From Ianthella basta (lineage: Eukaryota > Porifera > Demospongiae > Verongiida > Ianthellidae), in contig OZ025876.1 in NCBI GenBank assembly GCA_964019415.1, forward strand, positions 1,788,802-1,852,801: a stretch of 64,000 nucleotides of DNA, written 5' to 3'. Each line of letters begins with the position of its first letter. Position 1 is the stretch's first letter. The translations under genes and the position numbers were made by a program. The notes beneath the pieces are model-generated. The model was not told where the DNA came from. It searched no databases and saw only the letters and a list, made by a program, of their open reading frames with translations. Below, in pieces: positions 1,788-62,261 of the stretch.

Positions 1788-2694
1788 ATGAGTGGCAATA
1801 GGCATAGATCTAGAGCACCACTTCCCCCTCCTCACTTGTCTTCTCACGCAGCAGTGCCAGTAGGACAGCCACACAACCCTCCACCACCACTTCCACTGCG
1901 TCATCCACAGCACATAACTCCAGGACCTTTTCCACTCACTGAACAAGGCCCTCCTCCACTGCCTGAGGTGTGGAACAACCCACCTGAGACTCATGAGGCT
2001 GTTACAGAGCCACCAGTAGCTGTCTCTGGCACTGCTGAGAACAATGATACTGATCCACCTGCCACTGGTGAAGGAACTGTAGCAGCAAAGGCAACAAAAA
2101 CAGTCCCAAATGATCTTGCCCACATAGAAAGAAATGTAAGTTGGTTTTAAGAGATGAATCAAAATTTGATCCATATTCAATAATTTATATTTATCAGCTA
2201 GACATGTTAAGCTATTAGTACAGCTACATCATCCCACATACATGTCTTGTTCAGATGTATAACTTATCTGTGCAGCTCGTTCAGCCCCAGAGGTTGGCTA
2301 ACACACTAATGCATGGTCACAGGTCACTTGTACAGTTGTTTCTTTTTACTTTCAGTTGGGATTTGAAAGCTCATTTCCAGAAGAAGAGGAGACCAAAGCA
2401 GTGCCCCCCATTGGCAAAGCACTTAAATATGTTTACCGCTGCACCAAGGTCGGTGTGTACCATGGATGTGTTGTGGTAGTGGGATTTCCTGCCGCAGTTC
2501 TGTGGGCTATTTCAGCTGCCATCTTCTCTTTCATCTTCACATGGTTCATACTGCCATGTTTGAACATGCTGGCTGTGGGTGCCAAGATGCTTTTGCCACT
2601 GCTGCGTCTGCCGATGCAGCTTTTCACTGAAGTATTCTCTCCATGTCTGGAGGTGTGCGTCCGGTCAGCTATTCAGGTACTTGCGAGGAAGTAG
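1788..2694 (+). CDS. Caveolin-like protein, copy 1 (two exons, 228 aa)
   Basis: Exon 1 is 1788-2135 (116 codons, ending I-E-R-N), the donor is GTAAGT at 2136, and exon 2 is 2356-2694 after TTTCAG; the intron is phase 0. Residues 1-116 are rich in proline, alanine and threonine and lack any recognised domain. Exon 2 opens L-G-F-E and carries the caveolin core: T-K, Y, then G-F-P-A-A-V-L-W (about residues 159-166), A-I-F-S-F, W179 and P183-C184, matching vertebrate caveolin TK-x3-Y ... G-I-P-x-A-L-x-W ... W-x3-P-C in order and spacing. The family inserts as a hairpin in the inner plasma-membrane leaflet and scaffolds caveolae. The long proline-rich N-terminus and the absence of an exact FEDVIAEP motif set it apart. 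The start is chosen because ATGAG[TC]GGCAA is conserved among paralogues. Function is inferred from the fold signature only. Confidence 0.8.
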
Positions 2695-3194
2695 GAATTA
2701 ACTGCAGAATTTACATAACATGATAACTAAAGTTTACTAGCTAGCTGTGGTATATTTCATTTATAACTGCCTTTCTTCATTCATTAATTCATAATCATGT
2801 TGCAACAAGACTGAAGAATTGAACATATATACAGTAATATAATTATTATATACCAATATAATTTATGTGTTCATGTACCCACTCCTTACTCTCTTATGAT
2901 ATGTACCTATATATTATATGCATGAGCAGTGAACTCTCTTCAGCGGGTACCAGGGGCTGCATGCAAAATTCTTGTTACAAAGGCTACTAGTCACGTGTAT
3001 AGCAATACTTAAGATACACTGAGAGGAAACAGCTTGTGCCCATGATATGTACATACTCAAAACGCATACATAAGTGTTTAATTTGCATATGTGTATAAGC
3101 AATGGAGATGAGATAACCATGCAAAAGGATATCTCACACATGCGGCTAGTACGTAGTGAGAGAAAGAGTGCTGTTTTTATGCAAGACAACTAAC
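2695..3194. other. 3' flank of caveolin-like copy 1
   Basis: This non-coding flank contains the block GCATGAGCAGTGAACTCTCT (about 2921-2940), which recurs downstream of copies 3, 4, 5, 6, 8 and 10. It marks the extent of the amplified unit. Nothing else is recognised. Confidence 0.4.
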
Positions 3195-3302
3195 TTTCTT
3201 CTCAAACTGTTTGGTCCTCTTCTGTGCATCCTGCTGGAGACCTTGCAGTGTCTTTAACTTGTCCTTTCTTTTCTCCTTCTCTTTTTGCTTGTCAAATGCC
3301 CC
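3195..3302 (-). CDS. Possible orphan exon, GNL3/nucleostemin-like coiled coil
   Basis: On the minus strand a 108-bp open segment is bounded by an AG acceptor (before 3302) and GTTAGT (after 3195), with phase 0 at both ends. It encodes 36 residues, beginning G-A-F-D-K-Q-K-E-K-E-K and ending Q-K-R-T-K-Q-F-E-K-K. The lysine/glutamate-rich pattern resembles the coiled coil of GNL3/GNL3L nucleolar GTPases (KEREK ... TL ... QD ... RR ... EFE). No GTPase exon was found on either side, so it is a stray exon copy, part of a gene with long introns, or a chance low-complexity match. Confidence 0.28.
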
Positions 3303-4670
3303 CTGCTCATGGCATAAGACAGAAACAGAACCAATTAAATGCCTTGGGAATGGAGTTCTTTCATTCTCTCTATGCAAACAATCATATCCAACTGCACAGC
3401 TTAAACTACAGCCATAATGTTACATACGACGGTTTTACGTATGATGAACAAGTCGGTTGTAACTGCGTTGAGTCTAATGAAAGTCGCGACTAGGAAGAAA
3501 TGTTGGAAAGAAAGGAAAAATTGGCACCAGCTGACAGCTGAACCAAGGCCGGACAACTTATACCCTAACGTGGGGTTTCAGCAGCCCAAGCCAACCAACC
3601 AGGCCAGAACAACTCGCCCTTTCTCTCCTTATAGGCTAGTTCCGAATGATGGAATGGTTCAACTAACCTTTGCAGGTGTGCCGCTAACTGCTGCCACTTA
3701 GAACCTGCGTACAACAAGTCAGTACGAAACGATGACAAGGTTCCACTAACCTGAACGGGCGGGCTGCTCGCTGCTGCCACATACTTATGTACAGGTCCAC
3801 ATATACTTCACCAACACATCTCTCTGTCACCACCACACCACCACATCCCTCAACACACCAGGGGAAGGAGGACAGACTGGCAATGCAGAGGTGTTTATAT
3901 TGCAAGAGAAAAATTGAACCAGGTCATGGGCCACTGTGGGGTGGCTACCGGCATAGAGTGTGCCTTGCACATGTGGTATATACAACACAGCACAACACAT
4001 AGGGACACCACTGATGTCTAGATGCATAAAACCATCAACAATTGCAGATCCACTGTGAGGTATGTGGGTAGTGCCATCCCACACTCTCATTGGATCTATG
4101 GTAGTGTCTGTGGGTGTGGTTCAGTGCATGCATGAGCATATGCACATATTATCACATCTGGTGTTTAATAGGGTTAAAGTTCGTCAGCCCTGTAGACTGA
4201 GATGATGATGTGTTGGTTTGTGGTGTACGCATTTCACCAAATGCCGCAAACTCAATATGTCAGGTGAAGTGGTAGCCTGTCCCTGTTGGTCTTGTCATCT
4301 TTGTGATGAGTTATGTAGTACGTGCTGCTTTAGTTATTCAAACCCTTCTGTACCTTCTGTACTACCTGGTATGTGACATCTAAATGTGTGCAAACACACA
4401 CGCGTGGGTTTGAGTTGCAAAATGCCAAAGCGCGGTCTAGCTTGATAGACTATAAGCGTCCCTTAAGTCACATTAGCAACAGTGTATGATTGTTCATGTT
4501 ATAGTATTATGTAAATTTTAATGTCTGTTGTACACATACAATTGCAAATTGGCACAATCATACCTGCTCACATGGAACTATACCAACAAATTCTCCACCA
4601 TCAGATGCTCATCTGATAAAGTTAAACTTTGGATGAAAATCTTCTATTAAAACTTGCAGAGTACACCATT
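3303..4670. other. Intergenic, mostly unrecognised; single-unit relative of the 31-bp minisatellite
   Basis: Positions about 3940-4130 match the flanks of the minisatellite element at 7728-8560 (GGTGGCTACC at the left, TGGTTCAGTGCATG at the right) but without the expanded array. A short open stretch just before (about 3880-3975) encodes C-L-Y-C ... H-R-V-C, possibly a zinc-binding remnant of the parent element. Two imperfect copies of a roughly 70-bp segment lie at about 3650-3780. Confidence 0.4.
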
Positions 4671-4677
4671 TGTATTT

Positions 4678-4727: not shown

Positions 4728-4910
4728 TGCAGGCATTAGTTAGCAATTGCATGCACCCTTTTCACAATCCGTTTGTTGTTCTTTTGAAGTTGCTCAACTC
4801 ATTAACATTTTGAAAGAGAATCATAATTGGCCAAACTAAGGCAGCATTGCATGATTGCACTGTTGTGTTCTGTGGTAGTTGGATAATTTTCAACTTGACA
4901 TGGCTTTAGC

Positions 4911-4930
4911 ATATATATCTGCCCCCTTAC
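4911..4930 (+). promoter_or_regulatory. Shared core-promoter block of Frizzled-CRD-like genes
   Basis: ATATATATCTGCCCC followed by a TTACA...TGTGTC stretch lies about 60-75 bp before the first ATG. Equivalent blocks precede the genes at 9104, 13140 and 30481 (TATATCTGCCCC or a close variant), so it is the best core-promoter candidate for this family. Confidence 0.45.
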
Positions 4931-4988
4931 ATGATGCCTGTGTCCACCTCTATAGCTGCTGCTGTTATAGCCTACATCTGGTTGCAAG

Positions 4989-6564
4989 ATGAAATTTCTG
5001 ATGCCCCTGCTTGGAATTCTTACTGCCCTTGGTATATATGATCATCAGTGCACCTCTATTACTGTCTTTGCCAACGGTCTCACAATTATTGCTATTATAG
5101 CATGATTGCCTAGTACTTTGAAATGGTGGCTTTTTCAATGCTATGATTTCATTGTTTGCCTTCACTTATATAATTTTATATGAAATTTTGCCCTCCCCTT
5201 TTTTCAATGCCGGTGTAAATATCTCTGGTCTTTAGGAGCTTCAGCTTAAAGGTGGGTTAATTGTGACTCAGATGCGATCACGTGCATTTAAAATGGTGCT
5301 CACACTGCAGGTCTTCTTTAGTGCACAGCTGTTTGGTGTATGATGGGAGTGAGTGTACCACTATTTTTGGCCATGCTAACATCTCCTACAACCCTGATAT
5401 CAGAGCCTCAGATGCAGGATTACATGCTCATTTAACTGGTAGTCATCCAGCACTTCAGAACTCTTTCAGTTACAGCACAAGCTGTCAGAGCATTGTTCGT
5501 TTTATCCTATGCCTTCAATTCTTCTCCCCTTGCTCCGGTACCGTATGGTGTGGCTCCAGCTCAAAGGATGCTCTAAAGGCAGCTGTAGCTGTCAGTGCTT
5601 GTGAATGTAGTGATGCTGAATCTTGCAGATATAATGGATACGATGTTATCAGGGGCATTGATAATATGCCCTACTATGGAGGAAGCTCCGTAGCTTATAT
5701 CAAGAGATATGACATTGTTGTTTGCCAGGATGTTAAATCTGGTGAGAAAGATGTGTGGATGTATAATTACATACGTGCATGCTCTAGATCTGCAGTGCCT
5801 ATACTTGCAAATCATGTGAATGTCAATACAATTTTATTTGTATCACCTGGCCACCAGGGGGTAGCAGTAACCATTAAGGCTATTTCATTTCAGCCTTCTA
5901 TCTATTGTTATAAAGATCTACTACCAGTCCTCAAACTGCAGTTCCCTCTATCAGTGTCTGCTGTGATTAAGCTCAAGATTCCTTCCTTTTTATCCAAGCA
6001 TGAGCAATTATAATTTTTGGGTCTGTACACAATAATGGTAATTTAAAAAAAGAAAATATATAAAAGTTACCGAGTTAACAACCATTGGGTGGTTGCCAGT
6101 GAGGTATTACAGCTGTCGGCGAAGGCCAGAGTGCTGAGTTTAATCTCCAGCGTGCCACCTTTCTTTCCAGCCCTATGTATGTAGTTTCGACCAAAGGTAA
6201 ACAAACAGTAACCACACCGATTGTGTCTTGATTCGACACATCGTCTATTGGTCTTCAGACTGAAGCCCTTCCATCAGGCTTGCCTAGCTATAATTTTACT
6301 TAGGATTCCTTCCTTCTCCAAATTAGTATTCTCAACTTTATCCTTTATAACTATTTTGTCATCCTACGTATAAATATTAATTGTATGTAGTTAAACCTGT
6401 AATTATTGTGATTAATTGACATTGGCGTCAAATGAATAGCATGTGTTAAATCTCTCTTGCTCTCTTTTAAATGTGATACTGCAGGTGCCTATGGTAGCAA
6501 AAGAAGGTCTGTGATGCTCTGCATACTGTCGGCCATGTTGCTGTCCATTGGCCTGTTGCTGTAG
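4989..6564 (+). pseudogene. Frizzled-CRD-like GPI-anchored protein gene 1, probably inactive
   Basis: Exons by comparison with gene 2: 4989-5031 (signal peptide MKFLMPLLGILTALG), 5236-5251 (16-nt microexon), 5311-5741 (cysteine-rich domain), 6485-6564 (tail). Exon 3 has C-x7-C, a D-A-G-L segment, then C-x8-C-x6-C, the Frizzled CRD cysteine pattern. Exon 4 encodes a basic hinge (S-K-R-R) and a hydrophobic tail ending G-L-L-L, as in GPI-anchor signals. The microexon reads CTTAAAG where the other copies have CTCAAAG, giving TAA in frame directly after the signal peptide; skipping the microexon also runs into an early stop. I therefore call it a pseudogene, although exon 3 is otherwise open. The open frame running from exon 3 to 6013 is intron read-through. 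Confidence 0.65.
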
Positions 6565-7727: not shown

Positions 7728-8560
7728 AGGGGTGGCTACCAGCACAGAGTGTGCCTTGCACAGGGGGAGTGTACGCAACAAAACACATAAGGGAGTGTAC
7801 ACAACACAACACACCACATAGGGGGTAGTCCACAGCACACCCAACCACATAGGGGGTAGTCCACAGCACACCCAACCACATAGGGGGTAGTCCACAGCAC
7901 ACCCAACCACATAGGGGGTAGTCCACAGCACACCCGACCACACAGGGGGTAGTCCACAGCACACCCAACCACATAGGGGGTAGTCCACAGCACACCCGAC
8001 CACACAGGGGGTAGTCGACAGCACACCCAACCACATAGGGGGTAGTCCACAGCACACCCAACCACATAGGGGGTAGTCCACAGCACACCCAACCACATAG
8101 GGGGTAGTCCACAGCACACCCAACCACATAGGGGGTTGTCCACAACACAACACACCACATAGGGGGTAGTCCACAGCACACCCAACCACATAGGGGGTAG
8201 TCCACAGCACACCCAACCACACAAGGGGTAGTCCACAGCACACCCAACCACATAGGGGGTTGTCCACAACACAACACACCACATAGGGGGTAGTCCACAG
8301 CACACCCAACCACATAGGGGGTAGTCCACAGCACACCCAACCACACAGGGGGTAGTCCACAGCACACCCAACCACATAGGGGGTAGTCCACAGCACACCC
8401 AACCACATAGGGGGTTGTCCACAGCACACCCAACCACATAGGGGCACCACTGAAGTCTGGATGCATAAAGCCATCAGCAATTGCAGATCCACTGTGAGCC
8501 ACCAGGGTAGGGCCAACCCACACTCTAATTGGATCTACGGTAGTGTCTGTGGGCGTGGTT
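7728..8560. repeat. 31-bp minisatellite inside a dispersed element
   Basis: About 20 units of 31 bp run from about 7816 to 8445 (consensus core CCACATAGGGGGTAGTCC plus CACAGCACACCCAA). A variant unit with TTGTCCACAACACAACACA appears at about 8136 and 8260, four units apart, so blocks of units were duplicated together. The flanks (GGTGGCTACC, left; GTGGTTCAGTGCATG, right) match an unexpanded relative at about 3940-4130. The minus strand has no stop in any frame because the unit contains none; I do not treat this as coding. Confidence 0.85.
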
Positions 8561-9040
8561 CAGTGCATGTGCATAAGTTCGGCAGACCTGGAGAATGTGA
8601 CTGGCTACATAATTATACAGACTGAGAGGGACTTCTGCAGCCGCTGTCCTTAGCGTGTATTCCAATGTATCAAGCTTGTGATGTAGCACACTGAATGGTG
8701 AGGAAGTGTATGTGTGTACATACATGTATGTACAAACTCGTCTTCCTCTCCACCTTGTACTTTTGTTTTGCTTGTACACGTCTGTTCTTCTTACCTACAT
8801 AAAGAAACACAATCAACAGCATATCAGTGAAGAAGCAGTCAAATAGTGAGCACTGAGTAACAGTACGAAGCCACTACACAAGTTACAATGAGAGACTTTA
8901 TGGCATAAGTGCTGCACAGCACTCACGTTTGAAACTTTTCACCATTCTCTCTGCTCTGCATGGACTGTTGTGTTTTGTGTCAGTGGATAGTTTCAATTTG
9001 ACATGGCTTTAACTGGTCGTAGTTAGCATATGTATGTAAA
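8561..9040. other. Intergenic before Frizzled-CRD-like gene 2
   Basis: I recognise no gene here. The right-hand part (about 8940-9100) is the 5' flank conserved among the Frizzled-CRD-like genes. Confidence 0.3.
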
Positions 9041-9103
9041 TCTGCCCCTTACACGACATTTGTGTCTGCCTGCTGCTGTTATAGTCTATAGATGGGTTGC
9101 AAG

Positions 9104-10988
9104 ATGAAACTCCTGATGCCTCTGTTTGGAATTCTCGCTGCCATTGGTAAGATTGATCACTGCACCACTATTACGTACAACAGATTGATTGCTGTCTTTG
9201 CTAACAGTCTCAACTACTATTTACAGTAATTTAGCAATTATTGCATTTATTAAATTTCTTTACATCCTGGTCATTGATTCAATGCCTACTTTGAAATAGT
9301 GAATTTTTTCAATGCTATAATGTCATTAGTTACCTTCACTTGAAATTACTAATGTTATGTAATTTTGCTCTCCCCATTCTGCAATATGCTGATGTATACT
9401 TCTGTGATTTTGGTCCATAGGAGCTTCAGCTCAAAGGTGGGAAAATTGTGACTCACAGCAGTGATTGTGTTCATTAACTATGGTGTTAACACTGCAGGTC
9501 TCCAGCGCATAACTGTACAGTGTATGAAGAGAGCGAGTGTGCTGCTATTTTTGGCCGTGCTAACATTGCCTACCATCCTTATGTCAGAGAATCAGATGCA
9601 GGATTACGTGATCTTTTCTATGGTGATCATCGATCAACATTTTACTTACCCAGTTACAGCCCAGGCTGTCAGAACTTTATTCGTTTTATCTGGTGCATCA
9701 GCTCCTTCCCGCCCTGCCCTGGTACTGTATGGTGTGGCTCCAGCTCAAAGGAGGCTCTAAAGGCAGCTGCTGCCACTGCCTGTTCCTGTGCCAATGCTGA
9801 ATACTGTAGAGCTATTGATGTCAGTGAGTACATAGATAGACTTAGTAGATACTACAAAGGAAGCTCCGTGACTAGACTACTTGGTCTCAGCAGAAATGAA
9901 GTTTGCCAGGATGTTGCTGTTACATCTGGCCAAGGTGAGATATATGTGTGGCTGCGTACATGCATGCTCAATATCTTACATATACTGATATATCATGCAA
10001 ATTTCATATGTAATGTTTTGCAAATTAACTGGTCATCAGGAAGAGTGTTCACTAGTAAGACTATTTCTTTTGAGGTCTACAGCTATGCAGTGGCAGCCCA
10101 GTTTTGTCTGATTCAACATGTCTACTATCAGTCCTTAGATTGCGCAGTTCCCTCTATCAGACTCTGCTGTGATTATGCTCAAGGTTCCCTCCTATTCAAC
10201 CATTATTAAGCAAGTATAATCCAAATGTGTATGTGGGTATATATGTGCAGTGTATGTGCATTTTAATGCATATTAACTGTACACAGTACAAATTTTTAAA
10301 TGTAACTGCTTACACATTTACTATACCTGAAATTAGATGTACATTCGACTTTAAAGTTAGCTAACCCCCTAAGCTTGGCGAGTAAATCTTCTTCTAAGTA
10401 CCTGCACTAGCCGTAGGTCTTGCATAGTCAGCAGGCCAATTTCCTGAAAAGGGACTGGCTATGCAAGACTAGACACTTATTAGCAATTGAATGTGCCATT
10501 TTCACAGTCCATTTGTTGTTTTTTGAGGTTGCCCCAATCTTTCTCATTTTGAAAGAGAACCCTATATCTGCATGCTGTTTCCTTGTGTCTGATTCAACAT
10601 GTCTACTATCAGTCCCAGGACTGCACAGTTTCCTGTATTAGACTCTGCTGAGATTATTGGTCAAGATTCCTGCCTATTCAACCATTAATTAGCGCTTATA
10701 ATATTTGGATCTGTACACAAATATAGTGAAAGGAAGTGTAAAAGAAATTATAAAATTAACTGAGTTAGCATTCATAACTGTAATTATCATTAATTTTGCC
10801 ATTGTTTTTAAATGCTTTTATAGCTAAACCCAGAATTATTTGACCATGTGTAGCATTGATGCTCTCTCCCTAAATGTACCATTGCAGGTACTGCAGGTAC
10901 CAGTACTAGTGGTAGCAGATCTGGAATGAGCTCTGTGATGCTCTGCATACTGTCAGCCATGTTACTGTTCATTGGCCTGTTGCCATAG
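9104..10988 (+). CDS. Frizzled-CRD-like GPI-anchored secreted protein, gene 2 (four exons, 198 aa)
   Basis: Exons: 9104-9146, 9421-9436, 9498-9934, 10888-10988; phases 1, 2 and 1 are consistent throughout and all junctions are GT..AG. Residues 1-19 (MKLLMPLFGILAAIGASA) form a signal peptide with likely cleavage after A-S-A. The mature domain reads N-C-x7-C, then R-x-S-D-A-G-L, G-C-Q-N-F-I-R-F-I-W-C-I-S-S-F-P-P-C, matching Frizzled CRDs in cysteine spacing (x8, x6) and the D-A-G-L helix, followed by C-G-S-S-S-K-E-A-L and further cysteines. The C-terminus has a Ser/Gly/Thr linker (possible anchor site) and a 20-residue hydrophobic tail, so GPI anchoring is likely. Such domains bind Wnt-type lipids or other ligands; the ligand here is unknown. 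Exon 4 has two in-phase acceptors 9 nt apart. Confidence 0.72.
10415..10690. repeat. Internal duplication within the last intron of gene 2
   Basis: This stretch carries the CTTGCATAG...GGCTATGCAAG hairpin and flank normally found upstream of the gene family, then a second copy of the sequence at about 10105-10210 (TGTCTGATTCAACATGTCTA...). The intron therefore contains a duplicated promoter-side segment. Confidence 0.55.
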
Positions 10989-13020: not shown

Positions 13021-13139
13021 TTTAGTCGGTAGTAATCAGTGTACATATATGTACATATATATATATATATATATATCTGCCCCTTACACAACATTCTGTG
13101 TCTGCCTGCTGCTGTTATAGCCTATAGATCTGTTTCAAG

Positions 13140-14514
13140 ATGAAACTCTTGATGCCTCTGCTTGGAATTCTCACTGCCCTTGGTACGTACGATCAGCTGC
13201 AGCTAGTGCATGCACCAATAGTACAGGTTGCTGTCTTCGCCATCAGTCTCAAGTGCCAAGAAATTCTTAGCAATTGAGCACTAGCTGATTCAATGACTAC
13301 TTTGAAATGGTGGATAGATTTTATTGATGCTATTGATTTTATTGTTCGGCTTTACCTGAAATGTAATTGCACAATTTTGTCCTCCCCTTTCTACAATGGA
13401 CGGTATATGTTCCCTGATTCTGGTCCTTGGGAGCTTCAGCTCAAAGGTGGGTTGTGACTCAAAGTACTAGTAGTGATTTTGTGCATTCACTATTGGGTTA
13501 ACACTGCAGGTCTACTCCATTGCACAACTGTTCGGTGTATGATGGGAGTGAGTGTACTGCTATTTTTGGCCACGCAAGCATCTACAGCAGCCCTGCCATT
13601 ATCAGAACCAGAGACGCAGTATTAAGAGATTATTATTTCAGTGGCAACGGGCCAGCAAATTTAGACTTTTTCAGTGACAGCACAAGCTGTAAGAACTTCG
13701 TTCGTTTTACCCTGTGCCTTCAATATTTCCCCCCCTGCCCTGGTACTGTATATTGTGGCTCCAGCTCAAAGGAGGCTCTAAAAACAGCTGCTGCCACTGC
13801 CTGTTCCTGTGTTGATGCTGATTTCTGCACAGTTGGTGTATACGATGTCAGCCAGAGTATAGATACTATGTCTTACTATGAAGGAAGCTCTGCAACTGAG
13901 ATTCTTGATTACAACAGAAATGATGTAACATGCCAGGATGTTACATCTGGTGAGAAATGTGTTTGGATGTATTATATGTTCATGCATGCTCATGCACTAT
14001 AGCATACTGCATATCAAGTGAATGCCATTATTCAAATTAACTGCTTGCTAGGGGGTAGCAGTAACCAGTAGGACTATTTTATTTGAGCCCTCTATCTTCT
14101 GTTCCATGGTCTGTGGCCAGTGGCAGCCCAGCCCAAATCGTGTCTGATGTCTACTATCATTCCTCAGACTGCAGTGCCCTCCATCAGACTCTGCTGTGAT
14201 TACATAATTCCTTCCCATTCAACCATGCAAGAGCAATTATAGTTTTGGACCTGTACACAATAATGGTGAAAGAAAGTATTTAGCATTATCTGCATTAACA
14301 TTTAATTTGTAACTTTAATTACTCTTTGCCATCCTTTAATTGCCAATTTAATGTTTCTATATCTACGCTCATAATTATTTCATTAATTGACTGTGTGTAG
14401 CATTGATGCTCTCTTCTTAAACATGCCATTGCAGGTGCCCATGGTAGCAAAAGAAGGTCTGTGATGCTCTGCATACTGTCGGCCATGTTGCTGTCCATTG
14501 GCCTGTTGCTGTAG
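13140..14514 (+). CDS. Frizzled-CRD-like GPI-anchored secreted protein, gene 3 (four exons, altered splice site)
   Basis: Exons: 13140-13182 (MKLLMPLLGILTALG), microexon ending 13446, 13510-13949, 14435-14514. The domain keeps the Frizzled pattern (N-C-x7-C; S-C-K-N-F-V-R-F-T-L-C-L-Q-Y-F-P-P-C; C-G-S-S-S-K-E-A-L; C-S-C-V-D-A-D-F-C) and the tail matches gene 1 exactly. The canonical acceptor of the microexon is changed: TCCTTGG|GAGC instead of TTTAG|GAGC. An AG three bases further in (GGGAG|CTTCAG) keeps the frame and would only drop one glycine, so a 191-aa product is still possible. Without that shift the gene would be inactive. Expression evidence would decide. Confidence 0.6.
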
Positions 14515-45292: not shown

Positions 45293-45361
45293 TATAAATA
45301 TATACTGAAACGGACAATACCGATAGCCAAATGACATGTGTATGACATGTGTACCATTTCC

Positions 45362-47648: not shown

Positions 47649-47835
47649 CAGTGTAACCTGTCTAAGACAGCCACCTGTGGGCCATACAGTTCTAACTGAC
47701 CTTCATATACAGAGCGGTGGCTGCTCTACAGAGGTAGATTGCAATACTTAAGTGTTGTTTGGGGCCAGGGAAGCTGGCTGTTTTTAGGAGAGGTGGCTGA
47801 CTAACACAATGACCATCTTAGACAGGTTCCAGCTG
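47649..47835. mobile_element. pogo-like MITE
   Basis: CAGTGTAACCTGTCTAAGAC at the left, GGTTCCAGCTG at the right, TA on both sides (47647-47648 and 47836-47837). Confidence 0.7.
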
Positions 47836-48479
47836 TAATGCAATTTTTCTGTCTGATTAATATACCTGTTACTTAACTGTACACACATGTGTATGGGTTA
47901 TAGGACAGTGTGTTAGAGATATATGGGTTGTCAAACAAATTACACTACATAGGATATTTGATTGCTTGTTGAAAGCTACCATTTACAAAGTATGTACTAT
48001 AATAAGAAAATATGATGAAATGCTAATGTACATGGGAGATATGAAATAGGAAGTGTGGCTTTCAGTATAAGCTCATGTACAGTCATGATTTGCGTGGGAA
48101 GAGGGAGAATTCAGCTTCAGTATGATACATGTGCATGCTACTGTGCTGCAGCTTAAATAGAAAGCATAATATTGTACATATTGCAGTAGTTTCAATGACA
48201 TAATGTGTATTAAAGTGCATGCTCAATTTTGACATAATTATTTTATGTCAAAATTGGACCTTGGAAGCTATTAATCCACTCTACTTGTATTGGTATTTAA
48301 ACTATTGTTCATAGTTATCAGGTTGCAATATATTGTATGCATCCTGCCTTCCATCATGACTGTCCATATATACTCTATAACATAATTAACCTACACCTAA
48401 ATGACAGTATATAAATATTATCATAACTATACAATTGTTATTGCCATGCATATCACTATATTGGCGCTGGAAAAGATGG

Positions 48480-50371: not shown

Positions 50372-53035
50372 ATGAGTGGCAATAGGCATAGATCTAGAGC
50401 ACCACTTCCCCCTCCTCACTTGTCTTCTCACGCAGCAGTGCCAGTAGGACAGATACACAACCCTCCACCACCACCTCCACTGCGTCATCCACAGCACATA
50501 ACTCCGGGACCACTTCCACTCCCCGAGCAAGGCCCTCCCCCACTGCCTGAGGTGTGGAACAACCCACCTGTGACTGATGAAGTTTTTAAAGAGCCACCAG
50601 TAGCTATCTCTGGCACTGCTGAGAACAATGATACTGATGCGCCCGCAACTGGTGAAGCAAAGGCAACAAAAACAGTCCCAAATGATCTTGCCCACATAGA
50701 AAGAAATGTAAGTTGGTGTTAAGAAATGAGACAAAGTTTGATCCATATTCAAGAAAGATATTTATCATACAGCACGGTAGTGCTGTCTATGTAGGGATGG
50801 TGGTGGTTGTTTGTATGCTGTAATACAAACAAAAAGTAGTGGTACTCCTGAACAGAAGTAAGAGCCGGCGAAAGAAACCGTCTATGACAAAAGGGAGGAT
50901 GTACAGTATTCAGAGCTAACCTTACTTCCAAGCGCAAGCGCGCCGTCTGGTAGAAAGCGTCGTCGTCATTTTCCGTGTTACGTCTTCTTCATCTTCTTCT
51001 CCGTCAGCTGTAGCTCACGAACGACAAGGATTAAGACAACAGTTCATTCGCAGTTCTTCTCCGCGGCCCCCTTCCTGGCTAGTACCTTTTGTAGGTTAGA
51101 GGATGCTGCGACGTAGTATGGCATGTGGCGATTCTCCGGTCTAAGGTGCCCATAGCTATGGTCAGATGTTCCAGGGTGCATACGAGACATGCTTTGCCCG
51201 CCATTCCCCCCCGCACCTTTTCGGAGGTTCTCCGCAGTCGTGCCATTTGGCAGCCATTTCACTTATTGCGCGATTGCTTCCGTCCGCCACTTTCGCGTTC
51301 GTTTGGCGGTACAGAGCTACTTGTCACTTCTGGTTCCACTCCACAAGCATCCTGCATTCAAAGAGTAGGTATAGTGCAGCTCCTTTGTATGCATGTAGGG
51401 GCCGGGCCGCCTGTGGTGTAAGTATATACGTAGTTGTAGCCATATCCCTCCAGACAGTGAGTGAGAGTGGCAGCGAAATATGATTGGGATTGTGGGTGTT
51501 ACTCCGTGACCAAGCCAGCTTGCCTACTGCCACGATTTCCTGAAGCAAGTACGTTTTGGAGGGCTATAGCCCCCTAGCCCCCCCCCCCCCCCCCCTCTAT
51601 TCTGCCATCCTAGCCTTATCACAGCTAACTCTGCAACATGATAGCCTATCCGAAACGACGTAATACATCTTGCACCCACCCACCATCTTCCCTTTCCACC
51701 AGGTGTATCCCTGCAAATTGCTGGCTACTCAATCTACTTTGCTGTGCTCTAGAATCCTCCTACTCTTCCAATTCATCACGCGTTTCCCTGTAAGTATCAA
51801 TTGCAGGCTCTTTGGGTTCATGTGTAGCCATCTCGCTCTGCCATGAGACCCCGGCCCGGCAAACCACTAAGCTTATACTAATGCTTACCATAGCTGTTCA
51901 CTACATCGCTGCATGCAAACCACCACACCCACTTTCATGCCCACACTGTTTAGCTCTAGGCCTGCACAAACATTGTACACTTCACTGCCAATGTTTGTGA
52001 AATTCAGGGAGCTAGTGTCTTACAGTACATCAGAACACACCTGTATATATGTATGCGCCATTGTGTACTAGATTCTGCAATTGCTAGATAGCTGTACATG
52101 TACAGCCTTTTATCATCAGTGCTTCAGTCGTGTACATGGGTGTATGTATGCAGCTTGGTGATGTGTACATAGGAAGATGCATAGCTGGAATAGGCATCCA
52201 ATTTCAGTTGCGTGTAGTAGCCCTTTAGCTTGTTATTGCACACTCATGATTGCATAAAATGCAGGTGGAGAAAAAGAGGATGGTAGCAAGACTGCAAGCG
52301 TAGCAAAATATTGCCAGATGTAGGGATGGCACAAATGTCTTCAAAGTCAGCGAATGTTAATGACCTGGGTTGTGCATGGACAGGCTGAGCTCCCTCTTTG
52401 CATGGACCGGCCCTCCTCCTTGTTCCTACAGTATTTCTGCCAGGTGGTTTGTCATGCCCTTCCGAGACACACAGCACCATCCCTACATCTGTCCTTGTTT
52501 ATGGAGGAAACATTTTTACACACCCTTTATTTAGCTAGACATGTATATATATAGGCTATTAGTACAGCTACATCATCGCACATGTCTTGTTCAGGTGTAT
52601 AACTTAATGTGTGCAGCCCATTCAGTCAGAGAGGTTGGCTAACACACTAATGCATGGTCACAGGTCACGTGTAAAGTTGTTTCTTTTTGCTTTCAGTTGG
52701 GATTTGAAAGCACATTTCCAGAAGAAGAGAAGACCAAAGCAGTGCCTCCCATTAGCAAAGCTCTTGAGTGTGTTTACCGTTACACCAAGCTTGGTGTGTA
52801 CCATGGATGTGTTGTGGTAGTGGGATTTCCTGTCGCAGTTCTGTGGGCTATTGCAGCTGCCATCTTCTCTTTCATCTTCGCATGGTTAATACTGCCATGT
52901 ATGAACATGCTGTCTGTGGCTGCCAAGATGATTCTGCCACTGCTGCGTCTGCCAATGCAGCTCTTCACTGAAATACTCTCTCCATGTCTTGAGGTGTGCG
53001 TCCGGTCAGCTGTTCAGGTGCTTGCGAGGAAGTAA
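50372..53035 (+). CDS. Caveolin-like protein, copy 8 (two exons, 2-kb intron, 224 aa)
   Basis: Exon 1 is 50372-50707 (112 codons, ending I-E-R-N before GTAAGT), exon 2 is 52697-53035 after GCTTTCAG, phase 0. The core is intact: F-E-S-T-F-P-E-E-E-K-T-K-A, G-F-P-V-A-V-L-W, A-A-I-F-S-F, W, P-C, ending S-P-C-L-E-V-C-V-R-S-A-V-Q-V-L-A-R-K. Other copies have a 220-330-nt intron; here the intron is 1989 nt because about 1.77 kb of repeat was inserted at about 50767-52533. Intron sequences on both sides of the insert align to the ordinary intron, so exons 1 and 2 belong together. Splicing across it is plausible but unproven. Confidence 0.72.
50767..52533. mobile_element. Composite repeat inserted in the copy 8 intron
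   Basis: Left end ACAGCACGGTAGTGCTGTCT with TGTAGGGATGG, right end CACCATCCCTACATCTGTCC; these are partly inverted. Inside are the segment shared with about 38.8-39.2 and 20.04-20.53 kb, the empty target site of the pogo element (about 51449), a poly-C run at about 51580, and an inverted copy of the TIR element (about 51690-52340). Confidence 0.65.
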
Positions 53036-55650
53036 ACTGCAGAATTTACATAACATATAGCTACATTTTACTATAGCTAGTGATTTATATCTCAGGTGTA
53101 CATTAATAGATATTCATTTGGCTATAACTGCCTTTCTTCATTCATTAATTCATAATCATGTTGCAACACAAATGAATAATTATACCTGTACATGTGTGGA
53201 TGTACCCACTCCTTATTCTCTCATGATAGAGTAAACCTATTGCATATGCATGCATGAGCAGTGAACTCTCTTCAGTTGGTACAAGAGACTGCATGCAAAT
53301 TAAATCCTAAGCCTTGTAAGAAAGTAACTAATATGTTTTCTAACAGTTACATGTACCCTTATAAAGGAGGTGAGAATCACACTGTCACCTACGCATTTGG
53401 AGGGGTCTTGTTGGTGAATTTGCATGATCGACCCATATACGTTTCTCCTATGGCTTGCAATACAGCTTTTCAGTTTACTTTGCAACAATTCCGCAATCTC
53501 CTGCAAATCACAGCACTTGCACAATAAAATATAATTATGAAAGAGATTACAGAATTCAGCTATAATTGCATGCAGTAAATTGAATACAAAAGGATGATGA
53601 CTGTATGATATTCTGCTTACAAGGTATGTAGTATGCATGAGCTAGGCCTAGGGCTGCAGTTTAGTACATTAAGTATACATATCATTTATACTGTATATAA
53701 TATATATGTATGGCAATGTTCAGACTGCACTGATAATGTTAGCCAGAAGGTTGTGCTGAAGGTTGTGCATGCATTATACAAGTATATAATGCTACACATG
53801 CTATGAATATCTACCAATCAGCTTAAGCTAGGGGTATATTTCCATAAATGATAGCTTTGCACCTAGGCCCTACATTTATTGCATAATAATGATGCATTGC
53901 CCTCACCGATCCATTCACATATCCTGGGTAGTGCATGGGAAAATTTCCATTGCACAAATGTCATGTTGACATGCATGCGTATATGTATGTCTGGCAACAG
54001 CAACATTTTGAATATGAACTCTCTACATGTACAGTGATAATGCACATACTTATAAGAATAGCTTTACACACACACATGCAAGGTGTTGTGGTAACTATAT
54101 AGTCTTATGTACCAGGCCTGTAAGCAGGGGGGTTTGATGGGATCGTATGACCCCCCCCCCCCCCTTTCCAAGATCTGTGGTGAATAGAATTAAGAACCTA
54201 TCCATGTTCTATATAGTAGTCAAACTCTTTACTGAAGACCAGAGTCATTGTATTTTAAGCTTTTTCAGCATTTCCAGTACATATGTATGACCATTCACAA
54301 TGTCTTCCATTTTGATATGCTGTAACTTTAAGCCTTTGACTTTTCAAAACCCTGCATTCAGGACTGTGTATATAGCAAGCCCCTTCCCTTAGGCTATTTC
54401 TGTTATCTTGATGACATCATCTCCTGTACATGTGACTAATGAACGTGACATCAGCATTACTATAGTTATGGCCGGATGTAGGAAAGAGCCGGCAAACAGA
54501 TAATTATTATGCAAACTTAATTTCAGCTGGGAACTGTTAGTGCACCCTGACTTATAGCATGAACTGTAACAATGAACCTATTGTAGCTACATATACATGC
54601 TATGAACTGATTGCGGCAGGTATGTATATATATTAAGTTGTAGGAAACTGTTAATTTGTGATATAGTTCATATACTGTACGTGTAGTGTAGGAAACTGCA
54701 GTGAAACTGCATCAATGTTGAATGATAAACTGTAGCTATCCATGTGCCTTGAGTTATGAGTTAAGTTTGGATAAATGGGAAGTTTCCATTTCAAAGTTTT
54801 GCATACACGTGTGAGCTCTTTTGCAGAAAATTGATGATGAGGTTTGCCAGCCATCCAGCAATGTACATGTCATGCAGCTCCAATTTATTAAATTTAGAGC
54901 TCCATACACATACGTACACATAAACATGCATGTTACTATCAAGTTGCCTGTACAATAAACTGCCACTCGTGTAGCTATTCTTGCTGCCACGCCCAGGAGT
55001 GAGCACACCATTCATTGCATGCATGCCCACCACCACCATGGCCAGCTGCCACGGTTTCATTTCAAATGTACTGAATATGCCCCGTTCTGGTATGCTCCCT
55101 TCCACGCACTTTCAAGTCCAAACTATCTGAGGATAACATGATCATCACTAGTCACTAAACAGAAATAGATCCCGTTGCCATGGTAACGGGCCTCTAAACG
55201 ATGGTTCTAAATCTCTGAGAAGCATTCCAATTGCTTCGCGCGTGATTCTAAATCCCATAATCGTATGTTGCGTGCAGAGCGCGGGGTTTATAAATCCCAT
55301 AATGTACGTTGCGGGCAGAGCATGGGGGTTTATAAATCCCATATAACCATCTGCGAGAACTCCGCGGGGGCAAATATCTTTGTAAAATAGTCGTCATTCA
55401 CGCGTACACCATCAAGAAGCGAGAGTAGGGCGAAATTATTGGCTAAGCGAACGGATTTGGATCTATATCACTTAAATGGCGACCAATCGGTGTCTCTACG
55501 CGATTTAGACCACTCAGCACTCGGGCGCTTCGCGCCCTCGAACTTCGTACTCTAAATCGCGTAGACACCTCTTGGTCGCCATTTACTATTACTTATTTCA
55601 TTCGTACATACAACAGATTAGTGTGAGAAAGTACCACGATCAAACACGCA
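53036..55650. repeat. Segmental duplication D, copy 2: 3' flank of copy 8
   Basis: Near-identical to 41048-43640. Contains a poly-C run near 54152, the X-box copy (55174-55187), the 42-bp tandem repeat (about 55250-55375) and the foldback element (55473-55585). No gene recognised. Confidence 0.8.
55473..55585. mobile_element. Foldback element, second copy
   Basis: Same arms (TAAATGGCGACCAA / TTGGTCGCCATTTA) and inner GGGCGCTTCGCGCCC hairpin as 43453-43565, duplicated with its surroundings. Confidence 0.75.
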
Positions 55651-55918
55651 GTTCAACACTGGGTCTACAGATTGCAGTCTTGGGCACGCAGGCAGCAAGT
55701 TAGGCAAGCTAGCATCAACAGAATGACACCATATATGGGCATATATTAATATTGAAATGGGACATAGTCAATGTGATGAATATTAGCATTGATACTATCT
55801 ATATAACGGAAGACTTACTCAACATTCTAATAACCCAGTATACTGTTTGCAGAAGGAACCAGCTAGTCCTTTATTCTTCTAACTTGGGATGGTTATCGCT
55901 AGCTACTGAGATCTAGAG

Positions 55919-56160
55919 ATGAGCAGCAACAGGCCTAGACCTCCTCCTCACCTGTCCTCCCTTGCAGCAGTACCCGTGGCACAGCCACATGATCCTCCAC
56001 CAGCACTGCCATCGCACCCCCTTCCTAGGCACCCAGCATCACACAACGTTAACCCTCTACCGCCACAGGGCGATTCACAGGTAGCCCCAGGGCTCCCTCC
56101 TACTGTGAGGTACAGATCGGATGAGACCGAGATCACTATGAAACCACCACAATTACCTGC
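55919..56160 (+). pseudogene. Orphan caveolin-like first exon, copy 9
   Basis: Almost identical to the orphan exon at 47319: same ATGAGCAGCAACAGGCC start, same fusion to the 3'-flank sequence (TTACATTACTTACAG), no donor and no core exon. It arose by duplication F after the deletion. The frame remains open to 56200, which may only reflect its youth. Confidence 0.7.
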
Positions 56161-56289
56161 ATATTTTACATTACTTACAGTACATGCTGAATTTGCATAA
56201 CTCAGTCCTTGCTCAAGAATCTCGTATCATCGTAACTCAGTCCTGTTAAAATTAGTACAAAAGTACAAACGGCAACACTAGCTATAGTA

Positions 56290-56473
56290 CAGTGTAACCT
56301 GTCTAAGACGGCCACCTGTGGGCCATGCAGTTCTAACTGACCATATACAGAGCGGTGGCTGCTCTACAGAAGTAGATTGCAATACTTTAGCATTGTTTGG
56401 AGCCAGGGAAGCTGGCTGTTTTTAGGAGAGGTGGCTGACTAACACAATGACCATCTTAGACAGGTTCCAGCTT
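56290..56473. mobile_element. pogo-like MITE
   Basis: CAGTGTAACCTGTCTAAGAC at the left and GGTTCCAGCTT at the right, TA at both flanks; duplicate of 47649-47835. Confidence 0.65.
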
Positions 56474-57109
56474 TAATACAATTTTTCTGTCTGATTAATA
56501 TACCTGTTACTTAACTGTACACACATGTGTATGGGTTATAGGACAGTGTGTTAAAGATATATGGGTTGTCAAACAAATTACACTACATAGGATATTTGAT
56601 TGCTTGTTGAAAGCTACCATTTACAAAGTATGCACTATGAAATTATGATGAAATGCTAATGTACATGGGAGATATGAAATAGGAAGTGTGGCTTTCAGTA
56701 TAAGCTCATGTACAGTCATGATTTGCGTGGGAAGAGGGAGAATTCAGCTTCAGTATGATATTTGTGCATGCTACTGTGCTGAAGCTTAAATAGAAAGCAT
56801 AATATTGTACATATTGCAGTAGTTTCAATGACATAATGCGTATTAAAGTGCTTGCTCAATTTGACATAATTATTTTATGTCAAAATTGGACCTTGGAAGC
56901 TATTAATCCACTCTACTTATATTGGTATTTTGAACTATTGTTCATAGTTATTAGGTTGCAATATATTGTATGCATCCGGCCTTCCATCATGAGTGTCCAT
57001 ATATACACTATAACATAATTAACCTACACCTAAATGACAGTATATAAATATTATCATAACTATATATACAATTGTTATTGCCATGCATATCGCTATATTG
57101 GTGCTGGAA
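56474..57109. other. Duplication F, non-coding
   Basis: Collinear with about 47836-48475; no gene recognised. Confidence 0.5.
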
Positions 57110-59895
57110 AAGATGGCTGACCAAGGACTGATCGATGTTGATTGATGATTGTTCTTTGAGCCTCTTCCTTCCATCTCGCTCCTGATTTCTTGAAGTGTAC
57201 TGATTTCTTGAAGTGTATTTCTCTGGTTGCCATATAGTATAGTTCTAGTCTCCTGTAGACTTTTGATGGCACTTCCGTTGGACACACAAGATGAGAGATC
57301 CCCCTCGAACGGTTTGTGTGCTGTGTGCCTACGCTCTATGCCCCTGAGGAAGGATGGGGCAGTCCGTGTGCATGGGCCAGTTGTAAGCAGTTGCCCTGGA
57401 TCTGGTAAGCAACCGAGGGGCACACATCCTGCCGTGTCTCCTGCCCCCACGATGCCCCTGTCTCCCCCGTGTAGCCAACCCCCAATCGCGCCGTCAGCCA
57501 GCAAGTTGTCGACTGTTCTAGAGGAGGTGAACCGGAGCAACAACGTGAGTGCTTGGACTAGGCTGTTGAATTTCTCTCGATGGTGCTTTCGGGTTCCTGG
57601 AAGAGGACAACGGTGGAACCTTGCTTGACTGGTTAATCAGCAGGTAGCTGAAGAGAATGATCCTACACTGGTAACACCAGACCCAAGTGTTGCCCATCCT
57701 CATCGTCATGCCAGCAAGTCACAATCTGATCCACTTCATTCTCTGGCCACTAAGCTACTCAACTAAGCTGGAGGAGGGGGATTTCAGAGGCACGGTACGC
57801 TTGGCTTGCTCAGAGGATGCTGTTGCAGAACACAATGATGCCACCGTAGCAGCCTTGTGGGCCAAGCACCCAGCCCCGCATCCTGATACCAATTTCCCAT
57901 TGCCTCCCCAGGAGAATGAACCACAGCCCCCCATAGCAGTGACAGAGCAGGATGTGGCCCGGGCTGTCCTTTCTTTCCCTAGGGGTTCTGCAGGAGGCCC
58001 TGACGGACTCCTGCCTCAACACCTCAAGGATCTCATCAGCTATTCTGCCAGGGCGGGAGGCAAGAAGCTGTTGGCAGCACTCACGGCTTTCACCAACCTT
58101 GTGCTGTCTGGAATCACACCTGTGCAGGTACGGCCCCTCTTTTTCGGAGCAACCTTAACAGCGCTGAACAAGAAGGATATGGTGGATTGCGCCCCATTGC
58201 GGTTGGTTGCACCCTTCAACGTATGGTGGCAAAAGTGGCAAGCAGAGCTGTTCTGGAGCGTATGGAATCACTACTGGCACCACTCCAGCTAGGATTCAGA
58301 ACGTCCTTGGGAGCAGAAGCAGCAGTCCACTCCACAAGGGTCTATCTCCACCACCTGCTCCCAGACCATGTCCTCCTCAAGCTTGACTTTAGGAATGCAT
58401 TCAATAGCATTAGAAGGGACATGCAAGATGTTGGAAGTGGCAAGGGAACGCATTCCAGAGCTTTTCCACTATGTCTTCTCCTGTTACTCCGCGCCATCTA
58501 CCCTTTTCCTGCACGGGACAACCCTGCAATCTGCTGAGGGGGTTCAACAAGGAGACCCTCTGGGACCCCTCCTCTTATGCCTGACCATCCACCCTCTCAT
58601 CGCACCCCTGAAATCAGAATTCAGGGTTTTCTATTGGGAAGATGGCACAGTTGGAGGTGCTGAGGAAGAGGTGTTATGAGACCTACAGCACATTGAATGC
58701 CAGGCTGCCCACTTAGGTCTATTTCTGAACCATGCAAAGACAGAGCTCATTTATGAAGAACCAGCTGGTGATCTTTCCTGGCCTCTTTCGACCAGGAGCT
58801 ACGATCAATCCTCACTACTATCTTGAATGTCAGCCTGGACGACCACTCAACCTGGATACAAGCCACTCTTCCTGTTGTGGGTGAAGGTTTTGGGGATCCG
58901 AAGGGCCACCCAGCTTGCCCCCTCTGCCTTTTGGCATCTGCTGCTGGGTGCAAGGATCTTTTGAACCAGATCCTCCCTAACAGGTTGAAAGACACCCCCC
59001 CCCCCCCCCCCATACACCCTGAGTGGCAGCAGGGTCACCAGCACACACCACCTCCCACCCCAGTGAAGCAGCAGCAGAAAGAGTGGGACAAGCCCCACAT
59101 TGAGGCGACTCAGCAAGGGCTGCTGGACTCTGCTGCAGCCCCCAGGATGAGAGCTAGACTTTTGGCAGTTCAGGCTAAGGAGTCTGGTGTGTGGCTGAAT
59201 GCACTGCCGTTCCATCCCTGAGGCTCCGCCTTGATGATGAAGTGGTGCGCATTGCTGCTGGTCTTTGTCTCGGTGTTCCCCTCTGCCGTCCCCATGTGTG
59301 CAGTCAGTGTGGAGGCCATGTGGATGAGCTGGGCATACATGGCCTCAGCTGCAAGTTCAGTGCAGGGCGTCTTCCGCGGCGCATGGCAATCAACACTATT
59401 GTCAAGACGTCCCTAGCCAGAGCGCAGTTTCCATCTACACTGGAGCCCTCAAGCCTCAGCCGGTCAGACAGCAAACGCCCAGATGGGGTTACCATCACTC
59501 CATGGCAAGCAGGTCGCACCCTTGTTTGGGATGTGACCTGCCCTGACACCTACGCAGTCTCCCATATGGTGTTGGCAATGAGAGAGGCAGGAGCAGTGGT
59601 GGCTGCAGCCGAGGCGAAGAAGATCGAGAAGTACGCTGAGTTGGCTAGGACTCCCCATGTGGCCCCCACTGGTGGTCGAGACATCTGGTGTGTTTGGCTC
59701 AGGGGCTCGCGAATTCTTCACTGAACTGGGCAGGTGGTTGATCCGAGTCACGGGGGATTTGATGTCCCGATGCCACATGATTCAGCAGATCTCAGTTGCC
59801 CTACAAAGAGGCAACGCTGCCTCGGTGCTGGGCACCATTGAGCAATGTAATTTAATTGACAATTAATTACTATTCAGACATTGCATAGGTGGTGC
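57110..59895 (+). mobile_element. Non-LTR retrotransposon (LINE) with restriction-like endonuclease region
   Basis: The most complete copy in the window. Domains in order: N-terminal cysteine motif C-A-V-C (about 57325) and W-T-R-L-L-N-F (about 57560); reverse transcriptase motifs G-G-P-D-G-L-L-P-Q-H-L (about 57990-58025), L-K-L-D-F-R-N-A-F-N (about 58376-58405), G-V-Q-Q-G-D-P-L-G-P-L-L (about 58540-58575); a degenerate catalytic box (Y-W-E-D-G-T-V-G-G near 58635, expected Y-x-D-D); zinc motif C-S-Q-C-G-G-H-V-D-E-L-G-I-H-G-L-S-C (about 59296-59355); and R-P-D-G ... W-D-V-T-C (about 59475-59540), fitting a PD-(D/E)XK nuclease. Coding frames change at least at about 58180, where two extra bases interrupt N-K-K-D-G-G-L-R-P, so it cannot move by itself. 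Class assignment rests on motif order and not on a search. Confidence 0.75.
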
Positions 59896-60194
59896 TGTGC
59901 ACTGCCTATTAATTACTTTGACTCAGTTATTATTTGATAATAGGTCGTATTGATGCATGTATAATTACCCACAATTAGCTTACAATTACTTACTTAGTTG
60001 TGTACTGCAGACCTAAATTATAAGGTTATATGAGAAAAATAATTGATTCATATATAGTTTGCATGGGTCTCACACATTATTATGTTAGAGGTGCCAGTTC
60101 AGCCAGAAATATGGGTTTTACTAGTTTCAACCTATTTATTAACCATTTTATGTACATCTCATTGTGCTGTAAAGGCCTGAGTGGCTAGAAAGAG
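59896..60194. repeat. Duplication E spacer
   Basis: Near-identical to about 43985-44289; no gene or element recognised. Duplication E as a whole (59590-61362 against 43665-45470) links a LINE end, a Penelope-like remnant and a caveolin-like promoter. Confidence 0.6.
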
Positions 60195-61190
60195 ACATCA
60201 TAAGCTTTTCAATCACACTGGCCAAATCACTTGTTTAATCAGACGTTTTGGCAACACTACGGCTGCCTTCATCAGTGAATAATATCCCTAACAGGTGGTG
60301 GTGGTGGTGGGGGGGATAAATAGGGATAGTCACATGAGGGATAGATGAGCACAGGAAGCAAGAAGGGCAGGAATGAAGTAGATTGAAATAAGTACATGTC
60401 ATAAAGCTACAGGATCGGAAATGGGCTAAAAGAAAAAAGGAGGGTGGGAAAAGGTAGTTAATTAATCAGTTAATAAAGTTGCATAGAGTCCTGGCAAGGG
60501 TCCCTTCTCTCTGTTGAGAGGGGCCTGATGATGTTGGATGTGCCAGGATTCCAGCAAACAGTGAGTCTGTGTGGGTGGGTGGAAGTCTATAACTGATGCT
60601 TTGGACAAGTCAACTGAATGGCCAGCTTGAAACACATGCTCTGCAACAGCAGAGGCTGCAACGTGAGCATTCTTGAGAGCCCGATGGTGTTCCTGCAGGT
60701 GTATGTTGAGTGACCTCCTGGTTTGTCCAATGTAGGTGCGAGGACATTCAGCACATGAGATGCTATAGATCACTCCCTTCTTCTTAGCCACTGTGACTGG
60801 GTCTTTGGGGTGAACCAACATCTGCTCAGGGTCTTGAGGGAGCGAAAAGTTACCCGGATGGGAAAGTGGGCTGAGGATTCATCGAATCGACTCCGACAGA
60901 CCGTTGATGTAAGGGAGGGTCAAATTGGCCCGTACTTATTTCAATTTACGTGGTTCCCGTGTGTAGATTGAAATAAGTACTTGTCATTAGTATGACATGC
61001 ACTTATTTCAATCTACTTCATTCCTGCCCTTCTTGCTTCCTATGCTCATCTATCCCTCACGTGACTATCCCTATTTATACACCCCCACCTGTAAGTGCCA
61101 TTGTTCACTAATGAAGGCAGCCCTAATGTTGCCAAAACGTCTGATTAAGCAAGTGTTTTGGTTAGTGTGATCAAAAGCTTATGATCTCAC
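60195..61190 (-). mobile_element. Penelope-like retroelement remnant with GIY-YIG nuclease
   Basis: Inverted arms (60195-60395 and 60990-61190) flank the best-preserved nuclease fragment (60462-60821, minus): G-V-I-Y ... T-Y-I-G-Q-T ... H-L-Q-E-H ... L-L-E-S-W ... L-N-R-E-K-G-P-L-P. No reverse transcriptase. Fossil, non-autonomous; inverted terminal repeats are known for this family. Confidence 0.75.
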
Positions 61191-61253
61191 TGTGCTATAA
61201 ATATATGCTGAAACGGACAGTACCGATAGCCAAATGACATGTGTATCATTTCC

Positions 61254-61260
61254 TATAAAA
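61254..61260 (+). promoter_or_regulatory. TATA box of caveolin-like copy 10
   Basis: TATAAAA with GCTCACTCAGTGTCC, 95 bp before the ATG and about 65 bp after the end of a Penelope-like arm. Confidence 0.65.
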
Positions 61261-61348
61261 GCTCACTCAGTGTCCATGTTGTCAGTTTGCAGTGGGAACC
61301 AGGTTACCATCCTTGCAGCTGGTAGTCGCGTCAGCTACTGAGCTAGAG

Positions 61349-62261
61349 ATGAGTGGCAATAGGTATGGATCTAGAGCACCACTTCCCCCTCCTCACTTGC
61401 CTTCTCATGCAGCAGTGCCAGTAGTAGGACAACCACACAACCCTCCACCACCACTTCCACTGCGTCATCCACAGCACGTAACTCCAGGACCACTTCCACT
61501 CACTGAGCAAGGCCATTATTCACTGCCTGAGGTGAGGAGCAACTCACCTGGGACTGATGAAGCTGTTACAGAGCCACCAGCAGCTGGCTCTGGCACTGCT
61601 GAGAACAATGATACTGATGCGCCCACAACTGGTGAAGGAACTGTAGCAGCAAAGGCAACAAAAAATGTCCCAAATGATCTTGCCCACATAGAAAGAAATG
61701 TAAGTTGGTTTTTAAAAGTGAGACAAAGTTTGATCCATATTCAAGAAAGATATTTATTTAGCTATACATGTAGGCTATTAGTACAGCTACATCATCCCAC
61801 ATGTCTTGTTCAGGTGTATTGGTGGATAACTTATGTGTGCAGCCCATTCAGCCAGAGAGGTTGGCTGACACACTAATGCATGGTCACAGGTCACGTGTAA
61901 AGTTGTTTCTTTTTGCTTTCAGTTGGGATTTGAAAGCACATTTCCAGAAGAAGAGAAGACCAAAGCAGTGCCTCCCATTAGCAAAGCTCTTGAGTGTGTT
62001 TACCGTTACACCAAGCTTGGTGTGTACCATGGATGTGTTGTGGTAGTGGGATTTCCTGTCGCAGTTCTGTGGGCTATTGCAGCTGCCATCTTCTCCTTCA
62101 TCTTCGCATGGTTAATACTGCCATTTATGAACATGCTGTCTGTGGCTGCCAAGATGATTCTGCCACTGCTGCGTCTGCCGATGCAGCTTTTCACTGAAAT
62201 ACTCTCTCCATGTCTGGAGGTGTGCGTCCGGTCAGCTATTCAGGTACTTGCGAAGAAGTAG
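61349..62261 (+). CDS. Caveolin-like protein, copy 10 (two exons, 229 aa)
   Basis: Exon 1 is 61349-61699 (117 codons), exon 2 is 61923-62261, phase 0 intron. The downstream ATG (M-S-G-N-R-Y-G) is chosen over an in-frame upstream start at 61292 because it is the position conserved in all paralogues. The core reads F-E-S-T-F-P-E-E-E-K-T-K, G-F-P-V-A-V-L-W, A-A-I-F-S-F, A-W-L-I-L-P-F-M-N-M as in copy 5, then switches to S-P-C-L-E-V-C-V-R-S-A-I-Q-V-L-A-K-K as in copy 1; the 3' flank also follows copy 1. That mosaic points to conversion or unequal exchange within exon 2. Probably functional. Confidence 0.8.

Follow-up and report, generated by a model that had tools for sequence, protein, structure and literature searches.

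The caveolin-like genes that follow one another along a stretch of the Ianthella basta genome raise two questions: are they true caveolins, and how have their cores stayed alike while their N-terminal tails drifted apart? We addressed them in a window of 64,000 nucleotides, the whole stretch of contig OZ025876.1 that was analysed. A protein-to-DNA scan found on its plus strand ten proline-rich first exons, named A to J, with starts spanning 1788 to 61349, and seven caveolin-like second exons; these make up six complete two-exon genes and one disabled gene, which leaves three first exons as relics. The figure of about ten genes given in an earlier note on this DNA holds for exon 1, which is present in ten copies, but not for complete genes, of which there are six loci, and its reading of six open copies of exon 2 and one disabled copy was borne out. 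All seven two-exon copies have the donor GTAAGT, an acceptor ending in CAG and an intron in phase 0, and exon 2 consists of 112 codons plus a stop in six of them. The intact genes are A (1788-2694; exon 1 1788-2135, intron of 220 bp, exon 2 2356-2694; 228 aa), C (25562-26506; exon 1 25562-25840, exon 2 26168-26506; 205 aa), which has the second class of exon 1, D (35813-36749; exon 1 35813-36091, exon 2 36411-36749; 205 aa), E (40137-41047; exon 1 40137-40487, exon 2 40709-41047; 229 aa) and J (61349-62261; exon 1 61349-61699, exon 2 61923-62261; 229 aa), together with H (50372-53035; exon 1 50372-50707, exon 2 52697-53035; 224 aa), whose coding sequence is intact and whose intron, at 1989 bp, has gained about 1.8 kb of sequence with repeats in it.

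The remaining copies, likewise on the plus strand, are damaged in different ways. Copy F (45457-46373) is a pseudogene with an open exon 1 (45457-45810) and an exon 2 (46037 to about 46373) in which codon 10 is an in-frame stop and the frame shifts late on. Copy B (18666-18910) is an exon-1 relic that has a GTAAGT donor and no exon 2 ahead of gene C. The exon-1 relic G (47319-47549), of a third class, lacks the donor of the other copies, and its donor, intron and exon 2 appear to have been deleted; relic I (55919-56149) is a duplicate of G with an identical junction, as would follow if the deletion had occurred once and then been copied (46989-48797 vs 55590-57435, 93.5%). Self-comparison of the window, from which matches shorter than 150 bp and those within the two minisatellites were dropped, revealed nested segmental duplications, among them 43654-46376 vs 59541-62264 (94.6% identity) and 25013-28500 vs 35258-38770 (94.4%), the latter placing gene D within a 3.5 kb block that matches the block of C. 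The copies arose through repeated segmental duplication accompanied by deletion, insertion and pseudogenisation. At the right-hand end of the window, 63382-63998 matches the 3' flanks of E and H (41620-42263 and 53693-54315), and on this likeness the array pattern may go on past the window ends.

Several other elements are interspersed with the array. A cysteine-rich family has four plus-strand copies (4856-6039, 8961-10220, 13063-14267 and 30359-31572) with 66-72% DNA identity and a conserved Cys pattern; none of the four matched Pfam, a profile of the family found no PDB match, and its AlphaFold2 (AF2) model was poor (pLDDT 51.5) with no credible fold match. Between relic B and gene C lies a plus-strand DNA transposon (20969-22633) of two adjoining open frames with a Psq-type helix-turn-helix, a DDE_1 endonuclease and a C-terminal PHD finger. 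A reverse transcriptase match at 58004-58537 (plus strand) was weak and below the cut-off, and a GIY-YIG match at 44622-45041 (minus strand; similar frame at 60462-60878, also minus) was likewise weak (E 0.085); both are probably retroelement remains. In addition, a minisatellite at 7813-8444 (31-bp unit, 20.4 copies) is open in three minus-strand frames, and a degenerate tandem array with a period of 86 or 167 bp lies 3' of gene J (62776-63263).

The caveolin identity of the array is carried by exon 2. The four motifs pointed out in the earlier note stand in the claimed order and at one fixed spacing in all seven copies, a six-frame scan of the window gave exactly seven matches, and a looser first half of the motif string had no match in 50 mononucleotide shuffles of the window. 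The profile check proposed there also came out in favour of caveolin: the Pfam Caveolin profile (PF01146) scored 33.7-45.8 bits against a cut-off of 25 in seven of seven second exons, copy F being scanned only downstream of its stop. A profile of the six intact second exons aligned with human Cav1 residues 66-143 without a gap (78 residues, E 2.6e-7) and, more weakly, with the caveolin of PDB 9dn0, again ungapped (76 residues, E 8.9e-4). Along the ungapped Cav1 alignment, and in agreement with the motif string found in all seven copies, the signature motif, the scaffolding helix and the intramembrane stretch follow one another in order, and gene J and human caveolin-1 (PDB 7sc0) have 22 of 78 residues in common across the aligned core. 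The alignments start at Cav1 residue 65-66 and leave unmatched the pin region (Cav1 49-60), the motif that precedes the hook in type II caveolins (Cav1/2/3). Two scans of other genomes, each with two short peptide patterns, gave 62 pattern matches in viral and 89 in bacterial/archaeal contigs, none of them a confirmed caveolin.

The gene structure provides a second line of evidence. Human CAV1 is reported to have exons of 30, 165 and 342 bp (PMC5896723), so that its last intron precedes codon 66 in phase 0. In the array, exon 2 begins with the codon that aligns with Cav1 residue 66, and the array intron lies directly before the signature motif, also in phase 0, at a position equal to that of the last CAV1 intron; the last exons have 112 codons in the array and 113 in CAV1 (PMC5896723). 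Although this position is a supporting character of our own choice rather than a published criterion, its being common to both lends independent support to caveolin homology. In contrast to CAV1, which has two coding-region introns, the array genes have one, and they stand in tandem. As far as homology can be read from sequence, the array members are true caveolins, and this homology of the copies, together with the segmental duplications, upholds the earlier suggestion of a local caveolin expansion.

Unlike human Cav1, in which the N-terminus is of another kind, the array proteins carry a proline-rich tail in its place: in the seven copies with a paired exon 2, exon 1 encodes 93-118 residues with 19-23% proline. 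Its composition suggests that the tail is probably cytosolic and disordered. The first exons fall into three classes, A, E, F, H and J in one, C and D with the related B in another, and G and I in the third. The two first exons scanned out of ten, those of A and B, had no Pfam match, and what had been taken for a new N-terminal domain fits instead the variable N-terminal region described for caveolins in general (PMC12330381). Five of these seven exons, those of A, E, F, H and J, contain PxxPxR, a string of the SH3-ligand type that is short and of a kind common by chance. In the 31 aligned codons with which exon 1 begins, dN is below that of the remainder in all five cross-class pairs (for C-E, 0.16 vs 0.99), which hints that the extreme N-terminus may hold a short functional motif.

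Nine of the ten exon-1 copies, including all six intact genes and excepting B, have a TATAWAW no more than 150 bp ahead of the ATG, against a background of 101 such strings per 64,000 bases on the plus strand of the window; in gene J, TATAAAA lies at 61254-61260 (plus strand), 95 bp before the ATG. The string precedes TCAGT by 28 nt in A, E, H and J and by 20 and 50 nt in C and D; F lacks the second TCAGT, and TATAAAAGCTC is common to the five copies of the first class. A polyadenylation signal, AATAAA or ATTAAA, follows the stop within 600 bp in D, E, F, H and J, and within the same distance neither was found in A or C. Every gene would presumably be transcribed independently.

The two parts of the genes appear to have had different histories. 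When genes of the two main exon-1 classes are compared, identity is 84-95% in exon 2 and 61-63% in exon 1, and it is 49-57% in the intron (a comparison that leaves out H) and 51-54% in the 3' flank. In five bootstrapped cross-class pairs, out of 8 possible among intact genes, dS was 0.07-0.33 in exon 2 vs 0.72-0.98 in exon 1 as aligned pairwise (0.67-0.76 for cross-class exon 1 on the multiple alignment), and the 95% bootstrap interval of the difference was above zero in each of the five. Moreover, similarity changes partners along exon 2. In columns 261-336 the copies form two groups, E, F, C and D with 1-4 differences and A, H and J with 3-6, separated by 17-22 differences; E differs there from C at 2 positions and from H at 17, whereas in columns 1-200 the near copy is H, with 2 differences from E, and C has 15. 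The A-E pair inverts the usual order of divergence, with 8 of 220 intron sites and 43 of 339 exon-2 sites differing (Fisher p 0.00024). This inversion was significant in only one of the six pairs tested; in A-J and E-J the intron is more diverged than exon 2, as usual (p 0.029 and 0.011), and F-J, E-F and C-D gave no significant difference. With a run-length permutation test for conversion, a simple one of our own design on gap-free columns 1-336, only 3 of 21 pairs had a global p < 0.05. Exon 2 is a mosaic, which ectopic gene conversion has apparently homogenised, while most of exon 1 has diverged; the pattern itself is observed, and conversion is the cause that we infer to explain it best.

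Could purifying selection on the protein alone have kept exon 2 alike, with no need of conversion? The disc interface would be a plausible constraint, and none of the 15 exon-2 pairs reaches a dN/dS of 1 (0.14-0.88), in a table that covers the six intact genes, without F, B, G and I, and in which pairs share branches and mosaics distort the estimates. Values are high in A-J (0.88) and D-E (0.70), 30 of the 45 variable exon-2 codons are residue-changing, and exon 1 itself stays below 1 in 13 of 15 pairs (0.42-0.93; E-J 1.21, H-J 1.56). Given the shared branches, the mosaics and the many replacement codons, dN/dS is weak evidence of selection, which on exon 2 is, by these sequence estimates, not strong. 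Selection on the protein would leave unexplained that exon 2 falls below exon 1 in synonymous divergence as well in all five bootstrapped pairs, that E is near C in one block and near H in another, and that A and E differ more in exon 2 than in the intron, the other five pairs being without a significant inversion; we therefore disfavour selection alone and regard it as improbable. The other doubt about exon 2, that it encodes a helical membrane protein made caveolin-like through convergence only, might draw on the low core identity of 22 in 78 residues and on the structural modelling. AF2, given exon 2 of J and its five paralogs, six closely similar rows, returned a low-confidence monomer (pLDDT 70.5, pTM 0.30) that is essentially one helix over residues 20-112 with no C-terminal strand, and Foldseek found no match for this model in the PDB; built on so few and such similar rows, the model says little for or against a fold like the Cav1 disc protomer, the comparison by which the earlier note would have its reading refuted. 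Convergence is nevertheless hard to reconcile with Pfam Caveolin matches in seven of seven copies, an ungapped alignment across the signature and scaffolding regions, and an intron position and phase in common with CAV1, and we reject it as scarcely conceivable.

The number of genes has also to be defended against two readings. Invertebrate assemblies can contain unmerged haplotypes, and these or a misassembly might have inflated the array beyond its real copy number, as the high similarity of 17415-18561 and 33929-35081 (98.5%) could suggest. However, caveolin units show 81-95% identity within a class and carry different insertions, deletions and order, and coding sequences differ among the six intact copies, so that we consider inflation unlikely. 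According to the second reading, B, G and I serve as alternative first exons spliced to the next downstream exon 2, which would give one core several tails; each does lie upstream of a complete gene (C, H and J, respectively), and B retains its GTAAGT. Yet the 245 nt from the ATG of B to its donor put it out of phase with a phase-0 exon 2, and G and I, which are without the donor of the others, soon run into DNA matching C more than 400 bp 3' of its stop codon, as at a deletion junction. We reject this very unlikely alternative on the phase of B and on the lost donor and deletion junction of G and I.

Taken as a whole, we think it likely that the locus is a lineage-specific tandem array of true caveolins in which exon 2 is kept alike by conversion and selection and exon 1 diverges. 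A TATA-type sequence stands ahead of each intact gene. Exon 1 would supply a proline-rich, probably disordered cytosolic tail, and exon 2 the whole conserved caveolin unit, that is, signature motif, scaffolding helix, spoke region and C-terminus. By homology, this unit would lie in a single leaflet of the membrane as an amphipathic helix and form a disc-shaped oligomer that bends or buffers the membrane. Ectopic gene conversion together with selection would hold exon 2 alike and leave most of exon 1 free to diverge, and the likely outcome is a set of caveolins that resemble one another in the core and differ in the tail, which would provide both dosage and tail diversity. More speculative, and in our judgement doubtful, is a modular cluster in which conversion, acting chiefly on the disc-forming exon, keeps the assembly interfaces interchangeable, so that different paralogs could join in one disc and present their various proline-rich tails along its rim.

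Caveolins have been described from across the animals and from a choanoflagellate (Han et al. 2025, PMC12330381), and the array genes fit the published picture of the non-vertebrate members. According to the same source, the sponge Amphimedon queenslandica has five 'atypical' caveolins, and the N-terminal variable region is a general element of the family; in both sponges there are several paralogs per non-vertebrate genome and a variable region before a conserved core. In contrast to the five Amphimedon proteins reported, with which we compare by description, Ianthella has six intact genes and four damaged copies in 64 kb. According to published modelling, two of the Amphimedon caveolins are predicted to form a mixed complex, and one Amphimedon caveolin has been expressed in E. 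coli membranes (PMC12330381). With multiple non-vertebrate paralogs already published, five of them in Amphimedon (PMC12330381), the locus, a real and well-preserved array, does not stand as the undescribed system that it had been taken for. What this analysis adds is the evolutionary part, the apparently homogenised mosaic of exon 2 beside a mostly diverged exon 1, and the least ordinary feature is how the disc exon, kept alike, contrasts with tail exons that have drifted apart; neither a tandem caveolin array nor gene conversion among caveolins was found in titles and abstract openings of open-licence PMC articles among the matches listed.

The position of the last intron, common to the array and human CAV1 despite only 22 of 78 identical core residues, is an independent character that ties the two together. 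Non-vertebrate caveolins are little studied, and cavins appear confined to vertebrates (PMC12330381), which raises the question of what caveolins do where classical caveolae are missing. With a homogenised core and a diversified tail encoded by different exons, the array offers a natural experiment on which part bears lineage-specific function. If mixed discs with varied tails do form, they would constitute a combinatorial membrane scaffold.
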